From positions 186,001 to 250,000 of the forward strand of contig JBBDYQ010000015.1 of NCBI GenBank assembly GCA_040901445.1: a stretch of DNA of 64,000 bases, in the 5' to 3' direction. Position 1 is the stretch's first letter. Each line of letters starts with the position of its first letter. The position numbers were made by a program, and so were the translations under genes. This document shows positions 55,558 to 60,506 of this stretch, in pieces. The notes under the pieces were generated by a model. That model was not told the DNA's origin. It was given only the letters and a program-made list of their open reading frames with translations, and ran no database searches. Origin of the DNA: Thermoleophilaceae bacterium. Its GTDB lineage: Bacteria > Actinomycetota > Thermoleophilia > Solirubrobacterales > Thermoleophilaceae.

Positions 55558-55586
55558 CCGCGTCCGCGGCCGGGGCGGCCGCCTCT

Positions 55587-55659
55587 GGCGAGGTAGCTCA
55601 GTTGGTAGAGCACACGACTGAAAATCGTGGTGTCGCCGGTTCGATTCCGGCCCTCGCCA
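55587..55659 (+). tRNA. trnF: tRNA-Phe (GAA)
   Basis: A 73-base cloverleaf: acceptor GGCGAGG pairs with CCTCGCC, D-arm GCTC/GAGC, anticodon stem CACGA/TCGTG with loop CTGAAAA (anticodon GAA), T-arm GCCGG-TTCGATT-CCGGC, discriminator A. The terminal CC of CCA is the acceptor's end but full CCA is not encoded. tRNA genes of this type are frequent integration targets, and an integrase remnant follows. Confidence 0.97.
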
Positions 55660-55808
55660 TTTTCGCGAAGGGCGTCCGTTTGCAGGCCTTTGTCTGCATC
55701 GGAGGCCACTGGCAGAGGCCGTAGGAGGGGCGGGTGTAAACACGGGGTAAACGCCCGGCTCGCCGCTCCGGCGCCGGATCGAGCAGTTCACCGCGCCTTC
55801 CGGGGACG

Positions 55809-56099
55809 ATGGACACCGATCCGCCGCCTGCTGTGACGCTGAACGTCCCGTTCCCGCCTACGGTGATCGACACGATCGTCGCCCGCCTGGCAGAGCGTGC
55901 GGAGCGCTCGCAGCCGGCCGCGGTGGAGCGGTGGGTGGGCGTCGCGGACGTCGCGGCACACCTGGGCTGCAAGCGCCAGCGGATCTACGACCTCTACCGA
56001 CGCAAGTGCAACGGCATCCCACACCGCAAAGAGGGCGGGCGGCTCCTGTTCAGGCTGTCGGAGATCGATCGCTGGATCGAGAGCGGCCATGCCGCGTGA
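55809..56099 (+). CDS. Excisionase/MerR-like DNA-binding protein
   Basis: This 96-residue protein ends with WVGVADVAAHLGCKRQRIYDL, then a basic linker and LLFRLSEIDRWIESG, the winged-helix pattern of HTH_17 excisionase-type proteins. The N-terminal 45 residues are not conserved and may belong to an earlier mis-set start. Placement between tRNA and integrase supports a recombination-directionality role. The frame is intact although the integrase is broken. Confidence 0.72.
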   Translation: MDTDPPPAVTLNVPFPPTVIDTIVARLAERAERSQPAAVERWVGVADVAAHLGCKRQRIYDLYRRKCNGIPHRKEGGRLLFRLSEIDRWIESGHAA

Positions 56100-56160
56100 A
56101 CGCGCGGACGCCGGACTCAGCCCTCTTCGGCTCGTCTCGGACCTTCAGAAGGAGGCCGAG

Positions 56161-57342
56161 GTGGCAAGCACTGCCAAGACGAAGAAGACGAACACGCCGG
56201 GCGTGTACCGCCGCGGCGACAGGTACCTCTACACGTACCGGTTGGAGGGCCGCCAACGCTGGGGGACGGCCGATCCGCTGGACGAAGCCCGCCGATCCAA
56301 GCGGCACGCCGAAGCGGACGCCGACCGCGGCGAGCTGCGCGACCTCTCGCGCGTGCGGTTCGGCGAGTTCGCACTCGACTGGATAATCACGTACCAGGGC
56401 CGCACCTCTGCGGGGTTCCGCGAGTCCACTCGCCGCAGCTACCGCCAGATGCTCACCGACCGGGTGATCCCCTACTTCGACGGGGAGCGACGGTTGCATC
56501 TCGCCGAGATCCAGCCGCGCGACGTCAAGACCTTCGTCCGCTGGCTGATCGAGCAGGAGGATCCGCGACGCCCCGGGCGGCTGCTGTCGAAGTCCACGAT
56601 CCGGCAGCACGTCGCCGTGCTGCGAGCGCTGCTCGGCGACGCGATGGAGGAGGGGGCGATCCGCACCAATCCTGCGGCTGGCGTTCGCGTCTCAGTACCG
56701 GAGGGGGACGGCACCGGCCGGGAGCCCGCCACGAGCGGCGCGCGCTGTCCATCGGCGAGCTGCAGAGGCTGCTGACTGAGGTGCCCGCGGACTGGCGACT
56801 GTTCTTCGAACTGCTCACCCACACGGGCCTCCGCATCGGCGAGGCGGTCGAGCTGCGCTGGTGACGCGACCTCATCCTCACGAACGTGCCGTACGTCAAG
56901 GTGCGCTGGCAGTTCGCGGACGGGCGGGTTTGCGAGCCGAAGACCCGTTACGGCAAGCGCGACATCCCACTCGCGACCGGGCTCGTTCGCAGGCTCGCAG
57001 CCGTTCAGCCACCCGCGGGCTGAAGGCAAGCTCGCGTTCACGACCACGACCGGAACCAGGCTGAACCGCCACAACCTCTACCGCGACGTGTTGGGGCCCG
57101 CGGCTCAGCGCGCCGGCCTCGAGTGGGTGACACTCCACGCTTTCCGCCACACGTGCGCCTCGCTTCTGTTTGCGCCGGTGGAGCACGGCGGCGGTGGGAA
57201 GAACGTCAAGCAGGTGCAGGAGTGGCTCGGCCACCACTCGCCCGCCTACACGCTCAAGGAGTACGTCCACCTCATCGACTCCGGCGTCGGTGACGCCAGC
57301 TTCCTTGACACCGCTACGGCTGAGGGACCTTCGGTTCCGTAG
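56161..57342 (+). pseudogene. Tyrosine recombinase (integrase), frameshifted
   Basis: The gene starts at a GTG with AGAAGGAGG upstream and reads the arm- and core-binding domains in one frame to about 56710. It continues in another frame from about 56720 (SIGELQRLLTEVPADW) with an in-frame TGA at 56862-56864. It returns to the first frame after about 57022 to its end at 57342. The catalytic residues are all recognisable across frames: Arg in THTGLRIGEAVELRW, His-Arg in HAFRHTCAS, His in LGHHS, Tyr in YTLKEYVHL. Two compensating frameshifts and one stop show it is inactive. Confidence 0.85.
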
Positions 57343-57502
57343 TCTGGAGAGCGGTGGAGGCCTACGCCTCCGTCTGGTTGGACCGGGTTGCTTTGGCCGG
57401 GTGTGGGACGAAGCTCGGGACGAACTTGCTGCCCGATGCCGGCTCCGGGGCAAGCGCCGCTTCGAGAGGGCCGGGCGAGGAACGCAAAGCAGCGCCTTGC
57501 CC

Positions 57503-57772
57503 TCATGGGCCCTCGCTCCCCGCGACCCGCTCCGGTCGACTCGGCCGCTCGTAGGCCGCCTTCCATACCTGCTTGGTGCGGTGGAGGAGGGAGCGCCACT
57601 CCTCGATCCCGGGCATCGCCTGGGGCAGCGAGCGAAGCGTGCGCGACCAGGCGTCCTCGAAGGGGTGGCCTCGGTCGCGGTAGAGCCGGAGCATCGCCCG
57701 CACGTCGCTGGCGGGCGACGGCGTGTCGACGAGCTCGAGCAGCGAGGGGCCGCCGAACCCTCCACGGTCCAC
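57503..57772 (-). CDS. Possible small hypothetical protein
   Basis: This 89-residue frame (GTG start) contains DVRAMLRLYRDRGHPFEDAW and EEWRSLLHRTKQVWKAAYERP, a helical pattern resembling small uncharacterised actinobacterial proteins. Overlapping frames on both strands are also open, so it could be spurious. No ribosome site or -10 box is obvious. The 160 bases between the integrase remnant and this frame show nothing else. Confidence 0.35.
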   Translation of the reverse strand: MDRGGFGGPSLLELVDTPSPASDVRAMLRLYRDRGHPFEDAWSRTLRSLPQAMPGIEEWRSLLHRTKQVWKAAYERPSRPERVAGSEGP

Positions 57773-57856
57773 GGCCGGCGGCGCGTGCCCCTCTGACGGC
57801 GCTCATCGCAGCGGTCGCTCGTTCGCTCCGCGGGCCGTGGCAGGCTTCGGCGGCGT

Positions 57857-58354
57857 ATGAGCCGGCCGGTGGACTTGATCGCGGAGGCGCGTCGTCAATG
57901 GGAGCGGCGCTGGGGGAGCGGCTCGGCGGTGCCGATGGCGGCGGTGACGTCGATCATGCGCGTCGAGCAGGTCCTGATGGCCGAGCTCAACGAGCTGTTG
58001 AAGCCGTTCGATCTCACGTTCCCGCGCTACGAGGCGCTGATGCTGCTGTCGTTCTCCCAGCGAGGAGAGTTGCCACTGGGCAAGGTCGGCGAGCGCCTGC
58101 AGGTCCACCGCACCAGCGTCACGAACACCGTCGACCGCCTGGAGGCGTCCGGTTATGTGCGCCGCAAGCCCCATCCCGAGGACCGCAGGACCACGCTGGC
58201 CGAGGTCACTCCGGCGGGGCGCCGGACGGCGAAGCGGGCCACCGCCGTGCTCAACGAGGGGGCGTTCGCGCTTCGCGGGCTGTCGCGAGCGGAGACGCAG
58301 GAGCCCACGAGCCTGCTGCGGAAGGCCCGGGCGGCCGCCGGCGACTTCGAATGA
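57857..58354 (+). CDS. MarR-family transcriptional regulator
   Basis: This 165-residue protein has the MarR winged helix: LTFPRYEALMLLSFSQRGE, LPLGKVGERLQVHRTSVTNTVDRLEASGYV (read in parts), and the wing with RKPHPEDRRTTLAEVT. Helices at both ends form the dimer interface. Such regulators often control acyl-CoA or aromatic degradation genes and sense the substrate or its CoA ester. The convergent cluster from 58464 to the window edge is the natural candidate target, although it is not directly divergent. Confidence 0.88.
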   Translation: MSRPVDLIAEARRQWERRWGSGSAVPMAAVTSIMRVEQVLMAELNELLKPFDLTFPRYEALMLLSFSQRGELPLGKVGERLQVHRTSVTNTVDRLEASGYVRRKPHPEDRRTTLAEVTPAGRRTAKRATAVLNEGAFALRGLSRAETQEPTSLLRKARAAAGDFE

Positions 58355-58366
58355 CCCATAATGGAC

Positions 58367-58401
58367 GCCGGCGGGGCATCGATCTTCAGATGCCCGCCGG
58401 C
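58367..58401. terminator. Hairpin after the MarR gene
   Basis: GCCGGCGGGGCATC (58367-58380) pairs with GATGCCCGCCGGC (58389-58401) apart from one bulged G, around an 8-base loop. It is 13 bases after the MarR stop, between convergent genes. A smaller GCCTGC/GCAGGC hairpin follows before the B12 gene's end. Confidence 0.6.
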
Positions 58402-58463
58402 GCAGGAGGGATGTACTGCTATCCCCCGCCTGCCACCGAAGCAGCAGGCAGGCTTGACTGGGT

Positions 58464-58871
58464 TCAAGGCGCCGCCGCCATGCGGCTCGCCTCGCAGCGC
58501 AGGAAGACGCCGACGTCTTCGATCGAGCTGCCGCTTCTGAGCACGGCGGTTACGCCCAGGCGCTCGAGCTCGGCTGCGTCATCCGCGCGGATGGTTCCGC
58601 CGACCATCACGCGTACATCGCCGGCGCCCTTGGCGCGCAGCAGCTCGAGAATCCGGGGGACGAGCGCCATGTGGTCGCCCGAGAGGACGGAGATCGCAAG
58701 CCCGTCCGCGTTCTCCTGGATGACGGTCTCGACGATTCCGTCGGGGCGATCCTGAAGGTTGGCGTAGATCACCTCGACTCCGGCGTTGCGCAACAGGCGC
58801 GCGATGAGCTTCGCGCCGCGGTCGTCCCCGTCGGGCGGGAGGTTCGAGACCACGATGCGTGGTCTCTTCAC
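58464..58871 (-). CDS. Stand-alone B12-binding domain protein (mutase small-subunit-like), ligand His replaced
   Basis: This protein of about 135 residues has the B12-binding Rossmann-like fold of acyl-CoA mutase small subunits: RIVVSNLPPDGDDRGAKLIAR, AGVEVIYANLQDRPD, GLAISVLSGDHMALVP, VRVMVGGTIRADDAAELERLGV. The family's D-x-H-x-x-G motif reads D14-G-D16-D-R-G19, so Asp occupies the place of the cobalt-ligating His. The late Gly-Pro-Gly-Thr motif is also altered (RSGSSI). It may bind B12 differently, be inactive, or contain a one-base error (CAC to GAC). The GTG at 58871 fits family length; the frame is open to 59024. Confidence 0.8.
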   Translation of the reverse strand: MKRPRIVVSNLPPDGDDRGAKLIARLLRNAGVEVIYANLQDRPDGIVETVIQENADGLAISVLSGDHMALVPRILELLRAKGAGDVRVMVGGTIRADDAAELERLGVTAVLRSGSSIEDVGVFLRCEASRMAAAP

Positions 58872-59049
58872 GGATACGGCCTTGGCACGCGGTACTCCGA
58901 TAGTAGGAATGTCGCATAATGACGAGTTCCCGTTCACGCTCGTGGAGTCCGGCGCGGCGGCGGGCCCGGCCACCGAGGCCAGCGGGAGCTTCATGGCCTG
59001 ATGGCGTGAATGCCGGCGCAGCATCGAGGGAAGGCCGGCGCGACTCCGG

Positions 59050-60458
59050 TTAGATCACGCGCTCACACTTCTGCGCCACGTCGAGCAGTTCGCCGAACGT
59101 GCAGAGCTTCACGCGCGGGCGACCGGCCGACACACCCTCGGCACGCTCATGCTCATCGATCGCAAGCCACGCCTGGTAGTCCACGACCTCGATCATCCGC
59201 TCGGCGAGCAGGGGCTCGAGTGACTCGCGCGAGGGACCCACGGGCTCGGGGAGCACGCCCGCCTCGAGGTCCTCGAGGATCCGGTCAACGGTCTCCTGGG
59301 CGTCCCCCTTGTTCGTCCCGATGACTCCGGTGGGGCCACGCTTGATCCAGCCCACGACGAACTCGCCGGGACGGGGGCGGTTGCCGTCGAGCACCCGGCG
59401 GCCCTCGTTGGGGATCACGGAGCGGCGGTCGTCGAACTGCACGTTCGGCAGCGCGACGCCGCGGTACCCGATCGAACGGAACACGAGGCCGCACTCGAGC
59501 TGCTCGATCCGGTCAGTCGCGCGGGCACGCAACTCGCCGGAGCCGTCTCGGTAGAGCTCGTTGCGGACCAGGCGAATGCCCTCGACGCGCTCCGAGCCGA
59601 GGATCTCGGCAGGCGCGACGAGGAAGCGCAGGACTATCCGACGGCTCGTCCCGCGAACCTCACCCCTTGCGTACTCGTGCAGGATCTCGACGTTGCGCCG
59701 CGCGGTCGCATGGCCCTCGCCCTCGATCCACTCGGTGCTGAGCGGATCGGGCTCGCAGTCGAGCGGGTCGACGACGACGTCCGCGCCGGTCATCTCACCG
59801 AGCTCGAGCAGTTCGGGACTCGTGAATGCGGCCTGGGCGGGCGCCCGAGCAACACGACCTCGCGCACCGCGCTCTTTCGGAACGACTCGAGCGCGTGGTC
59901 GGCGACGTCGGTCTTGGCTAGCTGGTCGGGATGGGTCACGAGCATCCGCGCGACGTCCATCGCCACGTTCCCGTTGCCGATGACCACGGCGCGGTCGGCT
60001 GAGAGGTCGAAAGCCAGGCTGCGATAGTCGGGATCGCCGTTGTACCAAGCGACGAAGTCGGTGGCCGCCCAGCTTCCCGGCAGCTCTTCCCCTGGAATCC
60101 CGAGGCGCCGATCGGCCTGGGCACCGACCGCATAGACGACGGCGTGGTATCGGTCGCGCAACTCGTCGGCGGTCACATCGCGCCCGACCTCCACGTTGCC
60201 GTAGAACCGGAACTCGGGATGAGCCGCCGTCTTCTCGAACACACGACTTACGGACTTGATCTTCGGGTGGTCCGGCGCGACACCGCCGCGCACGAGTCCC
60301 CATGGCGTAGGCAGCCGGTCGTACATGTCTATCTGCACGGCGCGCGCGTCGTCGCGCAGGAGGTGCCCGGCCGTGTAGAAGCCCGATGGACCCGAACCGA
60401 CGATCGCGACGCGGAGGGGGTACTCGACGGATCCCGGACGTGCTTGGCCGGTCTTCAC
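59050..60458 (-). pseudogene. fprA: Ferredoxin/adrenodoxin-NADP+ reductase (FprA type), frameshifted
   Basis: The N-terminal part (60458 to about 59845) has the FAD motif [17 protein letters not shown] and the NADP motif [16 protein letters not shown]. The C-terminal part, in another frame from about 59840 to 59050, resumes at [16 protein letters not shown] and has GYRGVALP and GWIKRGPTGVIGTNK. The family reads 'VLLGRRGPAQAAFT' here, so about seven bases seem missing near 59833-59847 in a GGGCGGGCGCCC stretch. All domains are otherwise complete, so either the gene died recently or this is an assembly/sequencing error. It would pass electrons from NADPH to ferredoxin. Confidence 0.78.
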
Positions 60459-60506
60459 GGCAAGGCCCCTTGGGTCTCGGGCCGCCCACGCATAGCCATG
60501 GGCCTA

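Follow-up and report, generated by a model that had tools for sequence, protein, structure and literature searches.

A B12-binding-fold protein encoded in the window (the whole stretch of 64,000 nucleotides that was analysed) was found to carry Asp at the position of the cobalt-ligand His, and a paralog elsewhere in the same genome, 74% identical to it, carries Asp at the equivalent of Asp16. From their sequences both copies seem to have been kept by selection. The loss of the His is genuine, is not isolated and is present in both paralogs, so the natural reading is that the protein would not hold cobalamin in the usual base-off/His-on manner. We tentatively favour the reading that the two genes encode a duplicated His-less pseudo-subunit of a MarR-controlled mutase, which would dock on the large subunit as a cofactor-poor companion.

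The frame at 58464-58871 on the minus strand encodes VKRPRIVVSNLPPDGDDRGAKLIARLL. When aligned with HcmB (4r3u_C), 2yxb and methylmalonyl-CoA mutases, Asp16 falls on the His of their DGHDRG motif; the window protein reads DGDDRG instead of the canonical DGHDRG (VVSNLPPDGDDRGAK vs canonical VVVAKPGLDGHDRGAK). In the distal loop VFTPG(T/A) was replaced by VLRSGSS, corresponding to F111L, T112R and P113S relative to canonical sequences. The sequence-only reading was thus right in placing Asp at the cobalt-ligand His, in describing the distal motif as altered to RSGSS and in regarding the change of the His as not isolated, as the TPG motif is lost and Asp is present in both paralogs. The protein passes the profile of the methylmalonyl-CoA mutase C-terminal domain, TIGR00640 (109.8 bits, curated cut-off 57.45), as well as PF02310 (73.9 bits, cut-off 32.1). 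The profile search of the window protein returned PF02310/TIGR00640-type domains only, and no fused DNA-binding or photosensory domain was detected. Its best match in the PDB was HcmB (4r3u_C). A structure predicted without an alignment had a mean pLDDT of 65, which suffices for the fold and not for the geometry of the pocket, and the top Foldseek matches of this low-confidence model agreed with the best matches by sequence. Translation likely starts at the GTG at 58871, since 28 bp separate it from the predicted operator upstream and the ATG at 59024 is on the far side of that operator.

The paralog (VVSKLALEGDDRGAK) is located at C2:437409-437813 (L038:11410-11814) in the genome of 3.54 Mb and 25 contigs. 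The axial His of DxHxxG is absent in both copies (DGDDRG in the window, EGDDRG in the paralog) and the strand-5 TPG loop is without FTPG (LRSG and LNRG, respectively). Of the motifs that line the nucleotide pocket, SxL and GG, the window copy has SVL and GG and the paralog SIL and SG; the Lys-Asp-His set has become N-D-D in the former and K-E-D in the latter. Measured against the canonical consensus, the two Asp proteins are 58% and 61% identical, and 45 canonical subunits at least 81% with a median of 91%. Positions altered in both copies were enriched in two pocket loops (8/17 vs 11/71, Fisher p 0.008); the loops are taken to line the cobalt and the nucleotide tail, and their limits were set after the data had been seen. 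In the tree the two Asp proteins grouped as sisters (100/99), with a branch length of 1.94 changes per column against 0.08 for the median tip. Given this sisterhood, the long branch and the distance from the canonical consensus, the simplest history would be a single ancestral change in one lineage with the duplication afterwards.

Homologues were searched for in 200 relatives, 399 genomes of the class and 396 genomes of the phylum. Among the 200 relatives, matches dropped after the paralog to at most 58% identity and all that were fetched carry His. Altogether about 60 B12-domain homologues outside the Asp pair were retrieved from the order, class and phylum, and all have His, those of the MarR-linked loci and the best phylum matches included. 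A scan of 84,980 species with the exact pattern GDDRGAK[LIVM][IV]A, which is blind to departing variants and whose set possibly does not contain the window's own genome, gave three matches, none of them in a B12 domain; these (L041-L043) were chance matches of 10-28 residues. With a looser pattern the 399 class genomes gave many unrelated matches, and among the matches listed, compared by eye with the homologue list, only the two genes of the own genome were listed homologues. No relative was found among the IMG/VR contigs, and the homologues contained in 373 plasmid records were below 60% identity. A widespread Asp subfamily was rejected on the relative, class and phylum searches together with the scan of 84,980 species. 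The sequence-only reading had named conservation of Asp across related genomes as support for a new B12-independent or base-on subfamily, and His in homologues of close relatives as its refutation. The latter was observed, since every homologue fetched from close relatives has His; among the genomes searched Asp was not found in orthologues of other genomes and occurs in the two paralogs of one genome only. On present evidence the Asp protein would be a locally restricted variant of a known subunit and not a new subfamily.

In the reading that we prefer, the parent enzyme would be of the 2-hydroxyisobutyryl/isobutyryl-CoA mutase type and the window protein a strongly diverged small subunit. 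The Asp protein would be produced together with the mutase under MarR control and would be without the normal base-off/His-on hold on adenosylcobalamin. Docked on the large subunit, it may tune or hold it, and it would compete with the single canonical stand-alone His subunit encoded on contig C9. The duplication probably moved with an integrative element using a tRNA-Arg site.

Table 1. Features at and around the Asp gene, in positions of the window.
Feature	Position	Strand	Detail
Broken tyrosine integrase	55897..57342	+	Pfam; N-part 55897-56775, C-part 57088-57342
17-bp GACCTTCGGTTCCGTAG at left edge of duplicated block	57326..57342	+	identical 17 bp in tRNA-Arg
Block duplicated between window and C2 locus	57342..58881		blastn, 77-87% DNA identity
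MarR-family regulator, convergent with B12-like gene	57857..58354	+	PF01047
Intergenic region with three strong hairpins	58355..58463		fold z about -4.5
B12-binding-fold protein, Asp at cobalt-ligand His position	58464..58871	-	135 aa, GTG start
Altered TPG motif, VFTPG to VLRSG, residues 111-113	58533..58541	-	
Asp16 codon GAC replacing canonical His	58824..58826	-	
Predicted MarR-type operator TATGCGACATTCCTACTATC	58899..58918	-	28 bp upstream of GTG start
Ferredoxin/NAD(P) reductase-like gene upstream of B12-like gene	59050..60489	-	split between two frames

A complete acyl-CoA mutase large-subunit gene (L038:11944-13602) is oriented divergently from the paralog, and the best PDB match of its product was HcmA (4r3u_A) of 2-hydroxyisobutyryl-CoA mutase. 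Genes for 3-hydroxyacyl-CoA dehydrogenase and acyl-CoA dehydrogenase-like proteins follow it. No mutase gene adjoins the window copy; a methylmalonyl-CoA-type mutase large subunit is found at 307-1968 of the window, 57 kb off and too far for linkage. The earlier statement that there is no mutase large subunit is misleading, since the paralog stands beside one with the same predicted operator. The Asp gene had also been described as heading an acyl-CoA cluster, but it comes last in the cluster on its strand; the ferredoxin reductase-like frame lies 178 bp upstream of it, and it has an operator-like site of its own. The same-strand genes upstream encode the split reductase-like protein, an SDR, a thiolase and an HMG-CoA-synthase-like/OB-fold protein, and more genes of lipid or acyl-CoA type follow past the window edge. 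Near 59.8 kb the reductase-like gene passes from one frame into another, owing either to an assembly error or to a real disruption. In the genome a single stand-alone canonical His small subunit (contig C9) was found for several large subunits. Some large-subunit genes are cut at contig ends (C9, C13, C20 and C6), probably as a result of near-identical repeats in their middle parts, and the subunit counts may be incomplete.

The position of the paralog would also suit a working small subunit that holds AdoCbl without the axial His, with Asp, water or nothing below the cobalt, and supports radical chemistry with the C2 large subunit. The B12-domain gene adjoining the intact large subunit is the paralog, and the two have a predicted operator in common; in relatives the MarR-mutase neighbourhood is filled by a canonical small subunit, and SxL and most of the fold are retained. 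We nevertheless regard a working subunit as rather unlikely: the Lys-Asp-His set is disrupted in a different way in each copy, neither copy retains the TPG motif, GG has become SG in the paralog, and loss of the His in related mutases has been reported to lower activity by orders of magnitude. The change of the His alone does not exclude cobalamin, since His-less base-off binding exists in other enzyme families (PMC13331322), and Asp or water might still permit cobalamin binding. That mutase radical chemistry proceeds with the Asp small subunit, so that the axial His is dispensable and both forms exist in one cell, appears distinctly unlikely.

The left edge of the homologous block at 57342 is the stop of the broken integrase, which is preceded by a small HTH protein. 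A tRNA-Phe, the small HTH protein and the two-part integrase all lie within 55586-57342 of the window. The sequence GACCTTCGGTTCCGTAG at this edge has seven exact copies in the genome and none further within 2 mismatches: one lies in an intact tRNA-Arg, one in the window, and the other five belong to 3' fragments of tRNA-Arg on C2. Outside the window the copies are located at C2:372237, 390587, 416858, 436331 and 473891 and at C23:8494, and one of the C2 copies lies just left of the paralog's block. All seven have the same orientation and five are found within 102 kb on C2, an apparent array of integration sites. GACCTTCGGTTCCGTAG is likely the attachment core, and site-specific integration at tRNA-Arg was likely the vehicle of the duplication.

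Both B12-like frames are intact despite a synonymous divergence of about 0.5. For this gene pair dN was 0.17 and dS 0.54, giving a dN/dS of about 0.32 as an average over the gene and over time, which does not imply present-day constraint of both copies; pN was smaller than pS (z 4.6 against neutrality). For the partner MarR gene pair dN/dS was about 0.14. From the dN/dS values of the two pairs we concluded that purifying selection has on balance acted on both since they were duplicated, and less strictly on the B12-like pair. A duplicate that is slowly decaying, without present function, after transfer of the cluster by a mobile element would account for the very long branch, for the secondary losses that differ between the copies and for the broken integrase and frame-split reductase close by. 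Set against the intact frames, a dN/dS well below 1 and operators that are conserved exactly, such decay is improbable.

Both Asp genes are convergent with a MarR gene, and the two MarR copies are 85% identical. The 20-bp motif TATGCGNNNTTCCNACTATC was found with zero mismatches at exactly three sites in the 3.54 Mb genome, one upstream of each Asp gene and one upstream of the mutase large-subunit gene next to the paralog; two of the three sites share the stretch that separates the divergent paralog and mutase genes. About 0.002 occurrences would be expected (16 fixed bases, 3.54 Mb), with the sites before the two Asp genes being paralogous and hence not independent. MarR orthologues of 53-67% identity gave at least about 80 matches among the relatives. 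From these genomes 40 loci were fetched, 18 picked for a nearby B12 domain, and thus biased, and 22 by MarR rank alone. A mutase was found beside MarR in 14 of the latter 22 loci: in seven it belongs to the HcmA type, in the other seven to an IcmF-like type that is more distant. The motif occurred at up to 2 mismatches in 15 of the 40 loci, against about 0.3 expected for the bases scanned, and as a rule a short distance upstream of the mutase or the IcmF-like B12 domain. Several of the sites come close to a palindrome, the form expected of a target of MarR dimers. Based on the MarR-mutase adjacency and the recurrence of the motif in relatives, we regard the prediction of a MarR-type regulator for acyl-CoA mutase clusters as well supported. 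In a partial literature search no published description of such a regulator was found. Across the order the conserved MarR and the operator-like TATGCGnnnTTCCnACTATC were observed beside acyl-CoA mutase genes (L059-L098, relatives), and TATGCGnnnTTCCnACTATC also before IcmF-like B12 domains (L079-L081, L084, L086, L087 and L095).

The duplication took in both the MarR and the B12-like gene, the two are still together, and a predicted MarR operator precedes the Asp gene. This could point to a ligand-binding co-regulator that acts with the partner MarR, senses corrinoid, nucleotide or acyl-CoA and does not serve the mutase; B12-fold sensors exist (CarH, photocobilins), and photocobilin structures were among the fold matches. 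However, a DNA-binding or signalling domain is absent, and the two genes are convergent and form no operon. In relatives the MarR accompanies ordinary mutases without such a protein, which argues that MarR does not need the Asp protein. We consider such a co-regulator quite improbable.

The middle one of the hairpins between the convergent genes is near-identical at the window and C2 loci, and the hairpins probably form a bidirectional terminator. At the gathering score Rfam returned tRNA alone, the matches of the hairpins being weak and sub-threshold. The intergenic element common to both loci gave only chance-level partial matches in relatives, and the scan for consensus promoters and terminators found none. 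A short frame, MYC(Y/C)PPPAT(E/A)AAGRL, was observed inside the hairpin regions (window 58411-58455 and L038:11354-11398, both on the plus strand); the differences between these two sequences, the only ones available, are mostly at third positions.

A sequencing or assembly error at the Asp codon, for which a single base (GAC vs CAC) would be enough, was rejected as exceedingly improbable, because the same Asp is found at a second locus on another contig in a protein that is 26% different.

The axial His is regarded as a defining residue of B12-dependent acyl-CoA mutases. A natural His-less pair, retained alongside a normal His subunit and predicted to share a regulator with the mutase, offers a ready test of whether the His is dispensable, and also of whether mutase small subunits can turn into cofactor-free regulators. 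Should radical chemistry with the Asp subunit prove true, a lower ligand thought essential in the mutase family would be dispensable. A by-product is a predicted regulator of MarR type, with its operator, that would serve acyl-CoA mutase clusters throughout a bacterial order.

Among known systems, HcmB (the small subunit of 2-hydroxyisobutyryl-CoA mutase, 4r3u chain C) and 2yxb are the best matches of the window protein in sequence and fold, and like it they are stand-alone B12-binding domains. They differ in having DGHDRG with the His and a canonical loop, whereas the window protein has DGDDRG and an altered distal loop. A second likeness is to MutA, the beta subunit of heterodimeric methylmalonyl-CoA mutase (1req_B, 6oxc_B), also a mutase-family paralog; MutA carries no cofactor and yet stays in the enzyme. 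The structures 2req_B and 7req_B were among the fold matches of the window protein. MutA differs in being a full-length mutase homologue, ancient and widespread, whereas the window protein is a stand-alone domain. CarH-type sensors link a B12-binding fold to transcription control, as may the Asp gene with its predicted MarR operator, but they carry a fused DNA-binding domain and retain the His. Radical SAM enzymes, CFeSP and QueG hold base-off cobalamin without an axial His (PMC13331322). Their likeness to the Asp protein is the missing axial His, cobalamin binding being only putative here, and they differ from it in belonging to other enzyme families and in having a neutral or blocking residue below the cobalt.
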